Position numbers and translations under genes: made by a program
The notes under the pieces: generated by a model
Told to the model about the DNA's origin: nothing
Database searches by the model: none
What the model saw: only the letters and a program-made list of their open reading frames with translations
Assembly: GCA_022425485.1 (NCBI GenBank)
Contig: JAKMFL010000050.1
Span: 23,629 to 87,628, forward strand
Direction of reading: 5' to 3'
Source of the DNA: Alphaproteobacteria bacterium
GTDB taxonomy: Bacteria; Pseudomonadota; Alphaproteobacteria; Puniceispirillales; Puniceispirillaceae
DNA length: 64,000 nucleotides
Part shown: positions 1-9,251 of the stretch, piece after piece
How positions within the stretch are numbered: the first letter of the stretch is position 1
How the letters are laid out: each line of letters opens with the position of its first letter

Positions 1-208
1 GGCACAGTTGGAAATCGGGCTTGATGGTAGTGAAATGGTCATTATTCGCAAAGGCGATATGCTCTGGCGCATTGCCTATCGCACCTATGGCAGTGGTATC
101 CGCTATCTGGATATTGTAAAGCGTAATGCCCGCCAGATTAACAATCCGGACTTAATTTACCCAGCGCAGGTTTTTGCTCTTCCTGAGACACAAGACAAAG
201 AGCAATAA
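1..208 (+). CDS. LysM domain protein, C-terminal fragment (open at 5' edge)
   Basis: Frame is open to the window start. KGDMLWRIAYRTYGSGIRYLDIVKRNARQINNPDLIYPAQVFALP matches the LysM pattern. Confidence 0.85.
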   Translation, partial: AQLEIGLDGSEMVIIRKGDMLWRIAYRTYGSGIRYLDIVKRNARQINNPDLIYPAQVFALPETQDKEQ

Positions 209-253
209 TTTACCGATTAAACTGGACTAGAATTAGAATAGGTAAAACAGGAT

Positions 254-919
254 ATGGTTAAAGACCTGTTTACAAATTATTTTCATATTCCCAAACAACA
301 GCCCGGCTGGCCGTTGCTGGCTATTGCTGGCGGGCTTGCCGTAATTTTATGCGCGCTTTATCTGCCAGCCGGGCTGATAGGCTTCTCTGGATTTATATAT
401 CTGCATATTATTTTGCATAGCCCCCGCCGCACTATATCTAAGCTGCCCTCTGGGCACATAGCCGCCCCCATTGATGGACAGATTTTGTGGGTGCACCGTG
501 ATAAAGTATCTGCACGCATCACGGTTCGCGTTCGCGCAGACTGGCTCAACAGCCATATCACCTATGCGCCGATGGCAGGCCAGATTGACCAGATAATCTG
601 GTATGATGGCCAATTTACGGGCTTTGCGGATGATGCCTTGCCACCACCCGAAAATGCCCGTCAGGAAATAGCGCTCACTCCCTTGCATAGCGCCTCTTCT
701 GAAGACAAAATTACGGTTTGTCATCATGGCGCACCGCTAAGCCGTGTGCTGCAAAGCTGTGTTCAAGAAGGCCGGAAAGTCAGCCTTGAAATGCCGATAG
801 CCCTTGGGCTCTTGCGTCCAAAAATAGATATCAGTTTCCCCGCCTCTTATGGGCTCGATATTTATGCCGGTCAGCGCTGTCTAGCGGGAGATACCATCAT
901 TGCTAAAAAAGAAGTGTAG
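254..919 (+). CDS. Phosphatidylserine decarboxylase-family protein, catalytic motif degenerate
   Basis: Alpha-type PSD layout (N-terminal GWP plus TM region, APIDG for SPADG, REGxxVxxxxxxGLIR-like segment, C-terminal AGQRCLAGDTIIA), but the FGS cleavage motif is missing. Confidence 0.75.
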   Translation: MVKDLFTNYFHIPKQQPGWPLLAIAGGLAVILCALYLPAGLIGFSGFIYLHIILHSPRRTISKLPSGHIAAPIDGQILWVHRDKVSARITVRVRADWLNSHITYAPMAGQIDQIIWYDGQFTGFADDALPPPENARQEIALTPLHSASSEDKITVCHHGAPLSRVLQSCVQEGRKVSLEMPIALGLLRPKIDISFPASYGLDIYAGQRCLAGDTIIAKKEV

Positions 920-967
920 AATAGGTGAATGGCCCGAAAAACATAGCCTATCTTACGGAGCTCCTTT

Positions 968-1591
968 ATGTTTGATGCGTCTCTTCGTCCTATAATTGAC
1001 CCGCCCCTTAACTGGCTGGCAGGCGGCTGTGTCGCTGTTGGACTTACTGCGAATGGGCTCACAATTTTAGGGTTTGTATTTGGTGTATTTTGTGCTGTTT
1101 TTGTCTCGATGGGCTTTTTTCTGGCGGCGCTTATCTGCCTGTTATTAAACCGACTTTGTGATGGGTTAGACGGGGCCGTTGCTAGGCGGCAAGGCAGCAG
1201 TGATTTCGGCGGCTATCTCGACATTGTGTGTGATTTTATTTTCTATGCATTGGTGCCTTTTTCATTTGTTATCTTTTCTTCTGAACATGCCATAGCAGCG
1301 GGATTTTTGATGCTAAGCTTTGTTGGTACCGGCAGTAGTTTCCTTGCCTATGCCATTTTAGAAGCTAAAAACCCTGATGTGGTGGGCGTCAAGGCAGCCA
1401 AGAGATCATCAAGTAAGAAGAGTTTTTTCTATCTCGGCGGGCTGACCGAAGGAACAGAAACCATCGCTGTCTTTATATTGATGCTTTTATTTCCCGCATG
1501 GTTTGGGATCTTTGCGTGGGTATTTGGCAGTTTGTGTATTATCACGACAGGCTGGCGCATACATGCTGCGTTTTCAGATTTTGCAGAGTGA
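968..1591 (+). CDS. CDP-alcohol phosphatidyltransferase family, YnjF-like
   Basis: CDP-OH-P signature D-G-L-D-G-A-V-A-R-x8-G-x3-D-x3-D in CDGLDGAVARRQGSSDFGGYLDIVCD; FYLGGLTEGTET resembles YnjF. Confidence 0.9.
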   Translation: MFDASLRPIIDPPLNWLAGGCVAVGLTANGLTILGFVFGVFCAVFVSMGFFLAALICLLLNRLCDGLDGAVARRQGSSDFGGYLDIVCDFIFYALVPFSFVIFSSEHAIAAGFLMLSFVGTGSSFLAYAILEAKNPDVVGVKAAKRSSSKKSFFYLGGLTEGTETIAVFILMLLFPAWFGIFAWVFGSLCIITTGWRIHAAFSDFAE

Positions 1592-1722
1592 GAAATTTTA
1601 CCAAGAATAACGTGATACAGAGTTGAAACAAACCCTGAACCATGTAACTAAATAATGTGGGGCAGAATAGCTAACCCCGTCATTAACCTGAATTCACTGC
1701 GAGCAAATAGGCGGAGTAAAAA

Positions 1723-4035
1723 ATGAAATTTGGAATTGGTCAGACCGTTAAACGCTTGGAAGATCAAAATCTGCTTACAGGTAAAGGTGCATTTACAGAT
1801 GATCAAATGCCGGGCGAGGGGCGTGCGGTAGCGTTCCTGCGGGCGCCATTTGCGCATGCAATTATCACCCATCTAGACATTAGCGCGGCGCGTGCTGCCG
1901 ACGGGGTGGTTCTGGCGGCAAGTCAGGCAGATATGGATGCAGATAATGTTGGTGAAATCAATTGTAATTTCTATCCTGAAAACCGTGATGGTAGTCAGGT
2001 TCCGCGCACGACCAAGCCGCCAATGGCCCGTAGCAAGGTACGCCATGCTGGCGATTTGGTTGCTATGGTTGTTGCGGAAACGCGCCAGCAAGCTATGGAT
2101 GCGCTTGACCTTATTGAGGTGGATTATGACCCGCTGGATGCGGTTACAGATGTGTATGATGCCATGCGCCCCGAAGCCCCGCAACTTCATGATGAATATG
2201 TGAATAATATCGTTTTTGACTGGGAAGCTGGGGATATTAATAATGCCCGTGCCAAGCTAGATGCCGCCCTATCAGAGGGCGCAACGCTGGTTGAAATAGA
2301 CGTGATTAATAGCCGGGTGATGCCAAATGCAATGGAAACACGCCCGGTCGTTGCGATGCCTTCTGAGGAAATAGGGGGCTTGCGAGTATGGCTGCCTAGT
2401 CAAGGGCCAGTTGGGCTAGCGGGCCAGATTGCCACTGCGCTGGGCTATGAAGATGAGCAGTTGCAGGTCTTAACAGGGGATGTTGGCGGCGGGTTTGGCT
2501 ATAAAATTTTTCTGCATCCTGAACAGCTTTGTATTGCATGGGCAGCGAAGGTCACGCAAAGCCTTGTGCGGTGGCAACAGGACAGGTCTGATGCGTTTTT
2601 ATCTGATTTGCATGGCCGCGATAACCGTTCGGTTGCGCGTGCGGCTGTTGATGATAGGGGGCGGGTATTAGCGCTCGATGTTCGTGTGCATGCCAATATG
2701 GGCTCATGGCTATCTAACTTCTCATGCTATATTCCGACCCTGTCTGCTTGCCGTACGTTAACAGGGCCTTATGACATCCAAGATGTTGGTATGCAGGTGC
2801 TCGGTATTGTTACAAACACCCCAGCGGTAGATGCCTTTCGCGGCGCTGGCCGGCCAGAGGCCAATTATCTGCTGGAACGACTCATGGATCATATTGCGGC
2901 TGAACTGGCGTTAGACCGGGTTGCGGTGCGTAATGAAAACCTTATCAAGGCAGAGCAAATCCCGTATGCCATGGTCGAAGGGGGTGTGGTCGATTCAGGG
3001 GATATGCCGGGTCTGCTTGCGGATGCAATGGAAAAGGCAGATTGGCAGGGGTTTGAAGCCCGGCGTCGCGCTGCGCGTGCAAAAGGCAAATATCGCGGCA
3101 TTGGGCTTGCCATGTATCTAGAGCAATGCGGCGGCGGCGGCGGTGCGGGTGTTGATATTGAGTTTGAAGCAGATGGCACAGCGGTAATTTATGCAGCCCA
3201 GCAGGATAATGGCCAAGCACATCGCACAACACTAACCCAGATTTTTTCCCACCAGCTAGGTTATGATGTCGAAAAGATTAAAATTGTGCAGGGCAATAGC
3301 TTGCGTACGCCCAGCGGTACCACTGGCGGTGCGCGTATGTCTGCTGTGCTAGGCTCGACCCTATCGCAGGCAGCAGATCTGATAGCAGAAAAGGCTATGC
3401 CCCTCGCAGCAGAACAGCTAGAGGTGGCGCCAAGCGACATTCAATTTGCTGACGGGTTGTTTAGCGCCGCTGGCACTAACCGTTCTATCGAAATCGAAGA
3501 ATTGGTGGGGCTATTGGCGCGTGATACGCCAGCAGAGCATCCGCTAAACCAGAAGCATCTTTATACGACCAAAGGGGCAAGTTACCCCTATGGCTGTCAT
3601 ATCGTCGAAATAGAGGTGGATATGGCAACCTTGAAGCCGCAAATTCTGGACTATACAGTAGTGGATGATATCGGAAATGTCATTAATCCGATGACTTTTG
3701 CTGGCCAAATTCATGGCGGCATTGCCCAAGGGGTTGGACAAGCTTTATACGAGCATGTGGCCTTTGACCCCGATGGTCAGCTTTTAGCTGGCTCGTTAAT
3801 GGATTATACATTACCGCGTGCAGACCATCTGCCGTCTTTTTCTATTTCCACCCGCAGCACAGTTTGCCAAAATAATGTGCTAGGTGTTAAGGGCGTTGGC
3901 GAAGCAGGTGCCATAGGCGCCCCGCCTGCGGTAATATCGGCGCTTTGTGATGCATTAGGCGTTGTGCATATTGATATGCCCGCCACATTGCAAAAAATTT
4001 GGGAGACCATGAAACCTAAAAAGGAAGCGATATGA
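1723..4035 (+). CDS. Xanthine dehydrogenase/CoxL-like molybdopterin-binding large subunit (form II-like, AFRGAGR)
   Basis: 770 aa; GGGFGYK, AFRGAGRPEANYLLER, and C-terminal GVKGVGEAGAIGAPPAV with the active-site Glu. Confidence 0.92.
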   Translation: MKFGIGQTVKRLEDQNLLTGKGAFTDDQMPGEGRAVAFLRAPFAHAIITHLDISAARAADGVVLAASQADMDADNVGEINCNFYPENRDGSQVPRTTKPPMARSKVRHAGDLVAMVVAETRQQAMDALDLIEVDYDPLDAVTDVYDAMRPEAPQLHDEYVNNIVFDWEAGDINNARAKLDAALSEGATLVEIDVINSRVMPNAMETRPVVAMPSEEIGGLRVWLPSQGPVGLAGQIATALGYEDEQLQVLTGDVGGGFGYKIFLHPEQLCIAWAAKVTQSLVRWQQDRSDAFLSDLHGRDNRSVARAAVDDRGRVLALDVRVHANMGSWLSNFSCYIPTLSACRTLTGPYDIQDVGMQVLGIVTNTPAVDAFRGAGRPEANYLLERLMDHIAAELALDRVAVRNENLIKAEQIPYAMVEGGVVDSGDMPGLLADAMEKADWQGFEARRRAARAKGKYRGIGLAMYLEQCGGGGGAGVDIEFEADGTAVIYAAQQDNGQAHRTTLTQIFSHQLGYDVEKIKIVQGNSLRTPSGTTGGARMSAVLGSTLSQAADLIAEKAMPLAAEQLEVAPSDIQFADGLFSAAGTNRSIEIEELVGLLARDTPAEHPLNQKHLYTTKGASYPYGCHIVEIEVDMATLKPQILDYTVVDDIGNVINPMTFAGQIHGGIAQGVGQALYEHVAFDPDGQLLAGSLMDYTLPRADHLPSFSISTRSTVCQNNVLGVKGVGEAGAIGAPPAVISALCDALGVVHIDMPATLQKIWETMKPKKEAI

Positions 4036-4433
4036 GCTCAAAAATTGTTAAATCAGATGAAGAATGGCGTGCCCAGCTAAGTGATGAGCAATTTCAGGTT
4101 ACGCGAAAACATGCAACCGAACGTGCCTTTACGGGGAAATACCACGATAATCATCAGGCCGGCGCCTATGCCTGTATTTGTTGTGGGGCAGAGCTATTTC
4201 ATAGCGATACTAAATTCGATTCTGGCACAGGATGGCCTTCCTTTACATCGCCATCTTTGGAAGAAAATGTTGGGCAAAAGTCAGACCGCAGCTTTTTTAT
4301 GGTGCGCACCGAAGTGCATTGCGCGCAATGTGAGGCGCATTTGGGGCATGTGTTTAATGATGGGCCAGTAGATGCAGGTGGCTTGCGCTATTGTATCAAT
4401 TCTGCCTCGCTAGACTTCCAAAAAGACGACTAG
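4032..4433 (+). CDS. msrB: Peptide-methionine (R)-S-oxide reductase
   Basis: CxxC pairs (CICC, CAQC), GTGWPSF, GHVFNDGP, RYCINSASL. ATGA overlap with the preceding gene. Confidence 0.95.
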   Translation: MSSKIVKSDEEWRAQLSDEQFQVTRKHATERAFTGKYHDNHQAGAYACICCGAELFHSDTKFDSGTGWPSFTSPSLEENVGQKSDRSFFMVRTEVHCAQCEAHLGHVFNDGPVDAGGLRYCINSASLDFQKDD

Positions 4434-4490
4434 TCCCCAAAAGACGACTAGTATTTATCAATAAATCTCAATATCTGCGAGAGCTGAGGG

Positions 4491-4598
4491 GTTCTGGCAA
4501 TGGCTGCGCTCACACAAGTGCGAGGGGGGGAGGGAGAACCACCGCAAGGTAGGGCGCTAAAAAGCCAGTTGCCAGAATTCTTGCCTGTTGCCAGAATT
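4491..4598. repeat. Foldable imperfect palindrome of unknown family
   Basis: ttctggcaa+tggct+gcgc (4492-4509) is complementary to gcgc..agcca.ttgccagaa (4554-4577). The interior has CCACC-GCAA-GGTaGG with a GNRA loop. gttgccagaatt is repeated at 4568 and 4587. Confidence 0.5.
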
Positions 4599-4634
4599 AT
4601 TAAGGGTGTTAGCCGCAATTGGGAAAATAGTGGA

Positions 4635-5048
4635 TTAAGATCGGTGTTTTTCGCGGCGATGCTGTTTCATCTCATCGCGCGTGATAAGACCATTACTGTC
4701 CTTATCTACAGCGCTAAACATGCTGAGATGACGATTGGAAAATTCGTCTAAACTGATTTGTCCATTTCCATCTGCATCCAGACCAGAAAAGCGGGATTTC
4801 AGCATTTCATTCACTTCTGCTAGCGAAATCTGCCTGTCTTGATTGCTGTCAATAGCATGGAACAGAGCCTTAAATCCATGACGATATTTATGGCCTGTTT
4901 GTTTCTGTTTCTGTTCTATCAAGGGCTGGTTAGATTGGATGTTGCTAGCTGTTTTTTCTTTGTTTTGATTTACATGCGCAAATCCGCTAACAGTTATCAC
5001 GCTCAAGGCGCTTGTTAGGGCGATTAACCAGTAATATTTTGACTTCAT
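4635..5048 (-). CDS. Secreted EF-hand protein (three EF loops)
   Basis: Signal-like N-terminus; loops DSNQDRQISLAE, DADGNGQISLDE, DKDSNGLITRDE. Confidence 0.85.
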   Translation of the reverse strand: MKSKYYWLIALTSALSVITVSGFAHVNQNKEKTASNIQSNQPLIEQKQKQTGHKYRHGFKALFHAIDSNQDRQISLAEVNEMLKSRFSGLDADGNGQISLDEFSNRHLSMFSAVDKDSNGLITRDEMKQHRREKHRS

Positions 5049-5322
5049 TTCAACTCTCCTTTAAGGCTCACTTTTCTTTTTAAATGTTGGCGAAATAGAT
5101 TTTCTAAATAAGGATGCTAAATAAATTTCCCAGATTGGTTTTGCGGCGAGGCACAGACCTGAAAATTTTTTTAACTTCACAATTCGCAGTACAACAGGCA
5201 AATTGGGCAGGTTTCTGACTACATCATGGCAAGAAAAGGGCTTCGCTAAAAAAAATCGGGTATAAAAGCCGCTAAAAAAAAACTGCTAGGGTAGATAAGA
5301 TTTAGGGTATAAGGCATAAAAA

Positions 5323-6171
5323 ATGACGGATTCAACGCATTCAAAAATTACTGGTACAACAACCCTTTTCGGCTGTATGGCTTATCCAGCTGGCCATGTG
5401 CGTGCACCGATGATTTTCAATTCCATTTTTCAAGAGCAAAATCTTGATAAGGTGATGGTCGCCATGAGTGTCCCTGCTGAAGGGTTGGCTGCCTATGTGG
5501 AAGGCTTGCGCGCGCTTACCAATTTCAAGGGGGCTGCCGTTACTATTCCTCATAAAATGCCGCTAGCTGCGCTCTGTGATGAGCTGGGAGCTGGCGCACA
5601 AGCAGCAGAGGCGGTAAATGCGGTGGCTTTTACGGCTGATAGACGTCTAATCGGCGATAATTTTGACGGGGAGGGGTTTGTTGCTGGTTTGCGCGGGGAA
5701 AACCCCTTCAATGCGCCTAGAGATAAAATTTTTACAGGTAAAAGAGCCTTATTGGTGGGGGCCGGTGGGGCCGCACGCGCAATAGCATTGGCGCTGTCTC
5801 GCTGTGATTTAGCGCAAATTGATATTACCAACCGCACACCTGCGAATGCGGAAAAGGCTGTGCGCCTTGCCAAGAAAATTGTGCCAGATGCGCCGGCTCA
5901 AAACATAGCGGCCGCAGATGTAGATTTCGCCAGCTATGATATGGTTATTAATGCTACACCGCTTGGTTTACATAAAGAAGATGCTATGCCTTTTGATGTA
6001 CATAGCCTGTCTGCGGATTGCTTGGTATGTGATATCATAATGGTGCCTGAACGGACGGCGCTGATTGATGCTGCGGAGGCGCGTGGGCTGAATGTGCATT
6101 TGGGGCGGCATATGCTAGATTATCAAATGCAGCTGATAGGGGAATTTATTGGCGCTTTAGAGGCAAGCTAG
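5323..6171 (+). CDS. aroE: Shikimate dehydrogenase
   Basis: GAAVTIPHKMPL (catalytic Lys), GDNFDGEGF, GAGGAARAIALAL. Confidence 0.95.
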   Translation: MTDSTHSKITGTTTLFGCMAYPAGHVRAPMIFNSIFQEQNLDKVMVAMSVPAEGLAAYVEGLRALTNFKGAAVTIPHKMPLAALCDELGAGAQAAEAVNAVAFTADRRLIGDNFDGEGFVAGLRGENPFNAPRDKIFTGKRALLVGAGGAARAIALALSRCDLAQIDITNRTPANAEKAVRLAKKIVPDAPAQNIAAADVDFASYDMVINATPLGLHKEDAMPFDVHSLSADCLVCDIIMVPERTALIDAAEARGLNVHLGRHMLDYQMQLIGEFIGALEAS

Positions 6172-6259
6172 CAGGTTTTCTTGGTGTTCAGTTATTGAAA
6201 GTTAGCGCAGACCAGATTAAGTAAGATGAGATTGCATTTTTGCGGATTGGATAAAGGTA

Positions 6260-6646
6260 ATGGCTGAGGAAACAAGCTGGACAGAAGAGCGCCTTGAGAT
6301 GTTGCGCGGCTATTGGGATGAAGGTCTGTCTATTTCACAGATAGGAGAGCGTTTGGGGGTTACCCGTAATGCGGTTGCTGGAAAGGCACATCGCTTGAAC
6401 TTGCGCAAACGTCAATCCCCTATTGCACGAAAGCCTAAAGAAGTTGTTGAACCTGCAAAGCCGAGAGATTTGCCTTTGCGTCTTGCGCTTCGGGGTATTC
6501 AGTGGTCGCGTTCGAAATGCGTTTGGCCAACTGGCGATCCAAAGACAATAGAGTTTAGCTTCTGCGGCAAATCGATTGTGCCGGGCAAGCCCTATTGCTC
6601 TAAACATTGTGACCTTGCTTATACCACCTCGCGCGATGGAAGCTAG
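6260..6646 (+). CDS. gcrA: GcrA family cell cycle regulator
   Basis: N-terminal WTEERLEMLRGYWDEGLSISQIGERLGVTRNAVAGKAHRL is the GcrA signature; C-terminal CxxW..C..K.YC..H. Confidence 0.95.
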   Translation: MAEETSWTEERLEMLRGYWDEGLSISQIGERLGVTRNAVAGKAHRLNLRKRQSPIARKPKEVVEPAKPRDLPLRLALRGIQWSRSKCVWPTGDPKTIEFSFCGKSIVPGKPYCSKHCDLAYTTSRDGS

Positions 6647-9251
6647 GCAAACCCCTGCGGTCATTCACCGCGAAGATTACACGCCTTTTAGCTGGGTTCT
6701 GCACACCACAGACCTAGACGTGCACCTGTTTGATGAAAGAGCCGTTATTTGCGTAACGCTCGATATCAGCCCTAACCCAGACGCTGCGATGGCAGATAAT
6801 CTGGTTTTAAACGGGGAATCCCAAGAGCTGATATCTGTATCGGTTGATGGCGCAGAATTGCCGGCTAGCCGCTATCAGCTAGCCGATGGCAAGCTAACGA
6901 TTACGGGCCTTACAGGACAGCATAAAATCGCGGTTACCTCTGCGCATAACCCGTATGAGAATACCGCGCTTGAAGGTCTGTATGCTTCTGGCGGTATGCT
7001 ATGTACCCAATGCGAGCCAGAAGGGTTTCGCCGGATTTGTTTCTATCCAGACCGCCCAGATGTAATGAGCATTTTCACGGTTCGTATCGAGGCAGATAAC
7101 GCGTTCGTGAATCTGTTAAGCAATGGAAATCTAATTGAAGAAGGCCAGCTTGAGGCAGGCCGTCATTTTGCCCTGTGGCATGACCCGCATAAAAAGCCTG
7201 CTTATCTGTTTGCGCTGGTAGCTGGCGATCTGGATTGTGCCAAAGACCAGTTTACCACTGCGTCTGGCCGTGTTGTTGACCTACATATCTACGTAGAAAA
7301 GGGCAATACAGGCTTAACTGCGCATGCAATGGATAGCTTGAAACGCTCTATGGCTTGGGATGAGGAAGTTTATGGGCTGGAATATGATTTAGACCTGTTC
7401 CAGATTGTTGCGGTTAGCCATTTCAATATGGGCGCGATGGAAAATAAAGGTCTGAACATCTTTAATAGTAAATTCGTGCTGGCAGATGCCCGCACCGCAA
7501 CAGATGATGATCTCGACCGTGTTGAAGCTATTATTGCGCATGAATATTTTCATAACTGGACAGGAAACCGGGTAACCTGCCGCGACTGGTTTCAGTTAAC
7601 GCTGAAAGAGGGGCTTACCGTCTTTCGTGACCAGTGCTTTAGCGCAGATATGCATGATGAGGCGGTCAAGCGTGCAGAAGATGTGGCCACCTTGCGTGCT
7701 ATTCAATTTACCGAAGATGCTAGCCCAACCGCCCATCCTATTCGCCCCGAAAGTTATAGCGAAATTAATAATTTCTACACCCCTACAGTCTATGAAAAAG
7801 GGGCAGAGGTTATTCGTATGATGCATGCCAAGCTGGGCGCCAAAGGGTTTCACGCGGGTATGGATTTATATTTTTCTCGCCATGACGGTCAGGCCGTGAC
7901 TTGTGATGATTTTATCGCCGCGATGGCAGGTGCTAATAATGCGGATCTCTCTAGCTTTACATTATGGTATCGCCAAGCTGGCACGCCGCAATTACAGGCA
8001 AAGCGTGTGGAGGCAAAGGCCTCAAAAATACAGCTTGAGCTATCCCAACAGCTCATGCCGACTCCTGCGAATACTGGCACTGCGCCGATGCCGATACCTA
8101 TCAGGCTAGGGTTTGTTGGTTATGACGGGGATGCATTGCGCTTTAGCATTAATGGCGAGGCGGCGGCGGCTGAGCAAGTGGTGGTTTTATCGGGCGCTAG
8201 CCAGACGCTAGAGATAGACCTTGAAGCTGGTGCAAATGCAGAACGCGCTGTGCCCTCACTTCTTCGCGGATTTTCTGCCCCTGTTCGCCTGTCTGATGAT
8301 GTTAGTGCTGAAGAGCTTGGCATTTTAGCTGCCTTTGATAGCGATAGCTTTAACCGCTATGAGGCTTGCCAAAGACTAGCACATAATATTCTAGCAGCTG
8401 AAATGTCAGGTGCTGCTGATAGCCAGAGTGAGGATGCGCTAATTAACGCGCTTCGCCTAGGGCTAGCGGATAATTCCTTGCGTGATGACTTCAAAGCCCT
8501 TTGTTTTTCAGTGCCAGGTCAGGCCGATACAGAACAGCGGGCAACCCCAGCAGACCCCCCAAAAATATTTGCCAAGCGGTTAGCCTTGCAAGCTCGGCTG
8601 GGCGCTGCGCTAGCCAGCGAGATTAAGCCTATTATCAGCGCTACAAGCCATCTTGAGCAGGCAGCAGGTAGAAGCTTGCAAAACAAGCTTTTGGGGCTTG
8701 CATGTGCAAGCGGTGATGAAACCGCATTGGATATTGCGCTGGCGCAGTCTGAAAACCTGAATATGAGCCTCTCCATGGGGGGGCTACAGGCGTTAAATCA
8801 TACTGATCATGCCAATAGGGGCCGCGCGCTAGGCAGCTTTTATGAACGCTGGAATGGCTCGGCATTGGTGATGGAAAAATGGTTGATGTTATCTGCAAGC
8901 TCTGCTGTGCATGGGTATATCGCTAATATAAAAGCCCTTATGCAGGACCCGGTTTTTGATGCGAGTAACCCAAACAAGCTGCGTTCGGTCTTAGGTGTAT
9001 TTGCCGCCGCTAATCCAACATATTTTCATAAATCTGATGGTTCTGGCTATCGATTTATTGCCGAAGAGTTGGTTAATCTTGATAAGCGTAATCCGCAAAT
9101 TGCTGCGCGGATGGGGCTGGCTTTGACACGTTTTTCAAATTATGGCGCAGAGCGCCAGCAGCAGATGCGTGACGCGGTAAAGTTTGTTGCTGGCCATGCG
9201 CTATCACGCGATTTAAATGAAGTCATCTCAAAAGCCCTGAAAAGCGCTTAA
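6636..9251 (+). CDS. pepN: Aminopeptidase N (M1)
   Basis: GAMENKGLNIFN and HEYFHNWTGNRVTCRDWFQLTLKEGLTVFRD. Likely start ATGGAAGCTAG overlaps the gcrA stop. Confidence 0.93.
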   Translation: MEARQTPAVIHREDYTPFSWVLHTTDLDVHLFDERAVICVTLDISPNPDAAMADNLVLNGESQELISVSVDGAELPASRYQLADGKLTITGLTGQHKIAVTSAHNPYENTALEGLYASGGMLCTQCEPEGFRRICFYPDRPDVMSIFTVRIEADNAFVNLLSNGNLIEEGQLEAGRHFALWHDPHKKPAYLFALVAGDLDCAKDQFTTASGRVVDLHIYVEKGNTGLTAHAMDSLKRSMAWDEEVYGLEYDLDLFQIVAVSHFNMGAMENKGLNIFNSKFVLADARTATDDDLDRVEAIIAHEYFHNWTGNRVTCRDWFQLTLKEGLTVFRDQCFSADMHDEAVKRAEDVATLRAIQFTEDASPTAHPIRPESYSEINNFYTPTVYEKGAEVIRMMHAKLGAKGFHAGMDLYFSRHDGQAVTCDDFIAAMAGANNADLSSFTLWYRQAGTPQLQAKRVEAKASKIQLELSQQLMPTPANTGTAPMPIPIRLGFVGYDGDALRFSINGEAAAAEQVVVLSGASQTLEIDLEAGANAERAVPSLLRGFSAPVRLSDDVSAEELGILAAFDSDSFNRYEACQRLAHNILAAEMSGAADSQSEDALINALRLGLADNSLRDDFKALCFSVPGQADTEQRATPADPPKIFAKRLALQARLGAALASEIKPIISATSHLEQAAGRSLQNKLLGLACASGDETALDIALAQSENLNMSLSMGGLQALNHTDHANRGRALGSFYERWNGSALVMEKWLMLSASSAVHGYIANIKALMQDPVFDASNPNKLRSVLGVFAAANPTYFHKSDGSGYRFIAEELVNLDKRNPQIAARMGLALTRFSNYGAERQQQMRDAVKFVAGHALSRDLNEVISKALKSA

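Follow-up and report, generated by a model that had tools for sequence, protein, structure and literature searches.

The closest described relatives of the protein analysed here are the short alphaproteobacterial phosphatidylserine decarboxylases (PSDs; PF02666; PRK05305), pyruvoyl-dependent enzymes with a Gly-Ser autocleavage site. Maturation of the E. coli PSD uses D90/D142-H144-S254 (PMC7952604). Two further systems offer a comparison. The AdoMetDC prozyme of trypanosomatids is a dead paralogue of the pyruvoyl-dependent S-adenosylmethionine decarboxylase and activates the live enzyme (PMC5201418), and PsiD, an L-tryptophan decarboxylase (8x4q, 8zia), is a PSD-family fold that has been diverted from phosphatidylserine.

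Here we describe psd*, the label that we use for a PSD paralogue devoid of the Gly-Ser site, comprising the copy in the window (the whole stretch of 64,000 nucleotides that was analysed) and its relatives. It resembles the short alphaproteobacterial PSDs in its fold, its N-terminal hydrophobic hairpin, the PxDG motif, Arg164 of the VARR motif and the C-terminal GQ..(A)GET motif. It differs from them in lacking the Gly-Ser site, in having mostly lost the H144 equivalent and in carrying a Glu138 and a Gly159 of its own. The partner genes differ as well, psd* being paired with a YnjF-like gene and the canonical PSD with pssA. Like the AdoMetDC prozyme (PMC5201418), psd* appears to be a dead pyruvoyl-decarboxylase paralogue maintained by selection; unlike the prozyme, it belongs to another decarboxylase family and outlives the active paralogue in seven genomes, and is not simply its activator. 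PsiD is the top structural match, but it is an active decarboxylase, whereas psd* has no cleavage Ser. Judged from its sequence, psd* would represent a branch of pseudoenzymes within an enzyme family that is already known. No earlier description of it was found in the open-access papers searched, which contained no report of a PSD pseudoenzyme, a psd*-ynjF pair, YnjF or a SAR116 PSD.

The cleavage site of psd*

The features of the locus are listed in Table 1. An earlier note, written from the letters of the window alone, had recognised a PSD-family reading frame here, and the frame was indeed recovered, with an ATG start codon, the quoted C-terminus and 48 nt between its stop codon and the ynjF-like ORF. 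In a Pfam profile search the window protein scored 17.4 bits against PF02666, under the cut-off of 22, while the NCBIfam PRK05305 models matched it with ~50 bits. PF02666 was matched by all 32 aligned psd* relatives (best E 1.7e-24), and on these profile matches the homology to the PSD family is remote but real. A search against PHROGs gave no match. Several psd* proteins clearly exceed the Pfam cut-off (up to 91 bits) without a catalytic serine, which calls for caution in annotation: such proteins would be called PSDs, and a phosphatidylethanolamine (PE) pathway would be wrongly assigned to genomes possibly devoid of one.

Table 1 Features of the psd* locus in the window.
Feature	Position	Strand	Remarks
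LysM-domain protein gene, 3' end	2..207	+	PF01476 30.7 bits; upstream member of the cassette
psd*	254..919	+	PSD-fold protein of 221 aa that lacks the pyruvoyl-forming Gly-Ser; profiles, alignment, AlphaFold2, Foldseek
psd* Asp74, PxDG motif	473..475	+	Aligned with E. coli D90; retained in 44/47 psd*
psd* His101	554..556	+	Aligned with E. coli H144; present in the window, 9/47 psd* overall
psd* Arg188-Pro189	815..820	+	Occupies the alignment columns of the Gly-Ser cleavage site (E. coli S254)
YnjF-like CDP-alcohol phosphatidyltransferase, 207 aa	968..1591	+	PF01066 40.9 bits; catalytic motif complete

The same note had stated that the Gly-Ser was missing and that no alternative occurred near the C-terminus. 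Both statements stand, as there is no GS dipeptide anywhere in the window protein. The further claim that two residues had been lost at this site does not. Alignment with many relatives is gapless: canonical GLIRFGSRVDVWLP aligns without gaps over ALGLLRPKIDISFP of the window (which starts at nt 800, not at nt 806), so that F-G-S-R corresponds to L-R-P-K and the Gly-Ser is replaced by Arg-Pro. The two-residue loss had been proposed because the earlier alignment was anchored on the Gly of 'LGLL'. A sequencing error, named at the time as a possible refutation, is excluded, since RPK is also found in two congeneric species (G004, 81% identity; G005, 60%) and is therefore not an error of the window assembly. 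The suggested search of the same genome for a second PSD yielded an intact canonical PSD with FGSR, located beside pssA (L001).

We then compared the catalytic positions across the family. The alignment of 47 distinct psd* copies contained no Gly-Ser at the cleavage site, the S254 column being occupied by Gly (38 copies), Pro (4), Ser (3) or Ala (2). His was found in the H144 column in 9 copies and Gln in 27, with Lys and Arg also occurring; the D90 equivalent was present in 44 of the 47 and the D142 equivalent in 28. All 42 canonical PSDs compared retain D90, H144, Gly and Ser. The window copy keeps the equivalents of D90 and H144, and has Asn at D142 and Pro at S254. The D-H-S triad of pyruvoyl-dependent PSDs is thus not kept intact in psd*. 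At the level of sequence, this family-wide comparison strongly supports what the earlier note had proposed, namely that the protein cannot self-process and that a pseudoenzyme is kept beside an intact headgroup transferase; the two-residue deletion has to be given up.

The AlphaFold2 model of psd*, obtained with 32 family sequences, was confident (pLDDT 91.7, pTM 0.85). It comprises an N-terminal helix, a helical hairpin (residues 19-35 and 37-53) and a β-rich barrel core. The top Foldseek matches were PsiD and E. coli PSD, with probabilities of up to 1.00 but modest TM-scores of ~0.44 and E values of 0.002-0.04. The confident model and the PSD-family top matches indicate that psd* has the PSD tertiary fold. 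In a quick tree, psd* formed a single branch apart from the canonical PSDs (SH-aLRT 93), with long branches inside psd*.

The reading frames of psd* are intact across many genera, and psd* is under purifying selection. Between related species its dN/dS (NG86) was 0.10-0.27, including 0.10 in a pair from genus g7; in the pairs tested by the same method, ynjF gave 0.09-0.14 and canonical psd 0.13. We also considered psd* as a pseudogene, which was rejected on the basis of the relatives and the dN/dS values.

Gene order and distribution

The gene downstream of psd* had been described as an intact CDP-alcohol phosphatidyltransferase, and the profile match and complete motif bear this out. The window transferase carries the motif DGLDGAVARRQGSSDFGGYLDIVCD intact, and the pattern D..DG..AR(x7-9)G...D...D is shared by all complete family members except L015, where the Arg is replaced by Cys. 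The partner of psd* is an ordinary, intact YnjF-like member of PF01066, of a kind widespread in alpha- and gammaproteobacteria. In each of the complete psd* loci inspected, psd* is followed by the ynjF-like transferase gene, at a distance of -8 to 110 nt, and the stop and start codons overlap in several genera. A LysM gene lies directly upstream of psd* in 42 of the 42 loci tested. Canonical psd is followed by pssA, and psd* is never found beside either of these.

SAR116 is one of the abundant groups of the surface ocean. All 32 Puniceispirillaceae (SAR116) genomes of at least 85% completeness carry psd* (the window genome, G000, being 99.9% complete), as do nearly all of the 61 family genomes searched. 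In the sister families of the order, psd* was not found and the ynjF-like gene occurs without it, as it also does in most alphaproteobacteria, in Vibrio and in E. coli relatives. Class- and order-level searches outside the Puniceispirillaceae returned canonical PSD only and no psd*, and a PSD pseudoenzyme directly upstream of a YnjF-like gene was found in the Puniceispirillaceae only.

A pairing of psd* and ynjF spread broadly through the alphaproteobacteria was considered and rejected: among 80 named ynjF-like loci, psd* was present in only four (L136, L137, L150 and L152), all of SAR116/Puniceispirillum; from these records the family was taken to be the corresponding one, Puniceispirillaceae. 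At four loci (L146, L149, L153 and L164), the ynjF-like gene has a canonical PSD with FGSR ~0.85-1.1 kb upstream, with space for one gene, perhaps pssA, between the two, which links PSD and ynjF outside SAR116.

The LysM gene is also followed by the ynjF-like gene in the order's other families, where psd* is absent. Because this arrangement exists without psd*, the most likely course is that psd* was inserted into a LysM-ynjF pair already present when the family originated; its loss in the other families is the less simple alternative. The gene order and the tree would fit a single origin, in which a PSD copy diverged between the existing LysM and ynjF-like genes. The gene order could be partly conserved through shared descent within one family, though many genera are involved.

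Further downstream in the window, between ynjF and an MsrB-like gene, positions 1723-4035 encode a molybdenum hydroxylase large subunit, whose nearest NCBIfam models are glyceraldehyde dehydrogenase alpha and CO dehydrogenase large, both under their cut-offs. No obvious medium or small subunit was seen among the ORFs of at least 80 aa listed for positions 1-8000. On the minus strand, positions 4635-5048 encode a small protein that starts like a signal peptide and is EF-hand-like (DADGNGQISLDE, DKDSNGLITRDE).

Genomes without canonical PSD and PssA

Among the 32 family genomes that are at least 85% complete, a strong canonical PSD and pssA are both present in 25. In the other seven, which are 90-95% complete, neither canonical PSD nor PssA was detected; six of them belong to genus g7 (G034-G036, G038, G040 and G041) and one to g10 (G059). 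Draft assemblies can miss genes, but chance is an unlikely reason for six congeneric genomes to lack both. The only PF01066 proteins in the seven genomes are PgsA-like and ynjF-like. Searches of g7 and g10 for other zwitterionic-lipid routes found neither an ornithine-lipid type acetyltransferase (PF13444) nor a BtaA-like protein (PF11899), and the seven genomes are predicted to be without PE by the usual route. The psd*-ynjF pair is retained in all 32 genomes, including these seven. Its retention in genomes without PSD and pssA suggests that psd* is independent of PSD, of phosphatidylserine and of the canonical PE route, and that it does more than assist PSD.

Genus g7 also encodes a second, different dead PSD relative with open frames (L053, L055, L057, L058, L059 and L062; L130-L132, L134 and L135). 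In this protein FGS is replaced by FGG, the Asp of PxDG by Ser or Asn and the His by Ala. Its dN/dS was 0.10-0.22 in two pairs and 0.79 in one shallow pair, and at L131 its neighbours are a glutamate-synthase-like gene and a ketopantoate hydroxymethyltransferase gene. It is possibly a diverged former canonical PSD. In other families of the order, a PSD-like profile detected no PSD in G511-G517 (g283) or in G444 and G448 (g276); the ynjF-like gene is present in all of these genomes. These absences suggest repeated loss of PSD within the order.

Possible roles of psd*

The reading to which we give about even credence is that psd* is a pseudoenzyme serving the YnjF-like transferase as an accessory or lipid-binding partner, and that it had a single origin, at the base of the Puniceispirillaceae. 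The protein would keep the PSD fold, the membrane-anchoring N-terminal hairpin and probably a lipid-facing cavity. It is predicted to be unable to form the pyruvoyl cofactor, and would not decarboxylate by the known route. With the hairpin seating it on the inner membrane, it would most likely be an accessory subunit of the downstream-encoded YnjF-like enzyme or a partner that binds lipid for it, for example positioning or holding the lipid substrate or product of that enzyme at the membrane surface, or controlling its activity. A scaffold, a regulator or a protein with a new lipid role, as put forward in the earlier note, may all be envisaged.

The residues particular to psd* point to a constrained new role: Glu138 (96%) and Gly159 (94%) have been gained, while Asp74, Arg136 and Arg164 have been retained. 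Pro72, Gly75, Gly119, Arg164 and Gly173 are near-invariant or invariant. As a counter-point, the YnjF-like transferase does not need psd* in general, because many lineages have a ynjF-like gene without it. As a pseudoenzyme that is fixed across a family and has outlived the active pathway, psd* would show that bacteria, too, can reuse a pyruvoyl enzyme after its activity has been lost, and it would offer a handle on the product of the widespread YnjF-like transferases. We consider quite unlikely the more specific proposal that psd* and the transferase make or handle an undescribed SAR116 phospholipid, which would partly replace PE where PSD and PssA have been lost, with psd* as a PSD-derived, non-pyruvoyl subunit.

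The main rival to the accessory-subunit reading holds that the pocket was converted to a chemistry of its own. Here psd* would itself be an enzyme or lipid-binding protein, whose phospholipid pocket serves a pyruvoyl-independent reaction, or carries or modifies the YnjF-like product, through the kept Asp and Arg and the new Glu. The retention of Asp74, Arg136 and Arg164 and the gain of Glu138 in ~95% of the members are consistent with such a pocket, as are the confident PSD-like model and the strong selection. However, no obvious catalytic residue set is apparent and the H144 position varies between His, Gln, Lys and Arg, and we regard this explanation as possible but somewhat unlikely.

It is very unlikely that psd* is a prozyme that activates or stabilises the canonical PSD in a hetero-oligomer. 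Dead paralogues that activate a live pyruvoyl enzyme are known (PMC5201418), and psd* and the canonical PSD coexist in 25 of the 32 family genomes; in the remaining seven, however, psd* is under selection without canonical PSD and PssA, and does not occur only together with an active paralogue. Moreover, psd* always adjoins ynjF and never psd or pssA, and g7 holds only its second dead PSD relative.

Self-processing of some psd* proteins through another residue, which would make them active decarboxylases with a changed site, is highly improbable. The S254 column is occupied by Ser in three members, all of genus g8, where the residue before it is Arg, Cys or Gln, and this reading gains some favour because a Gly before the Ser is not strictly required in other pyruvoyl enzymes. 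Against it, 44 of the 47 psd* copies have no Ser in this column, the window copy having Pro and the g8 relative L016 having Ala, and the three g8 members lack the H144 equivalent. Finally, although psd* evolves faster than the canonical PSD, as seen from its longer branches, that it is a decaying relic carried in the operon is hardly credible given its low dN/dS, intact frames and invariant residues and its presence in every sufficiently complete family genome.
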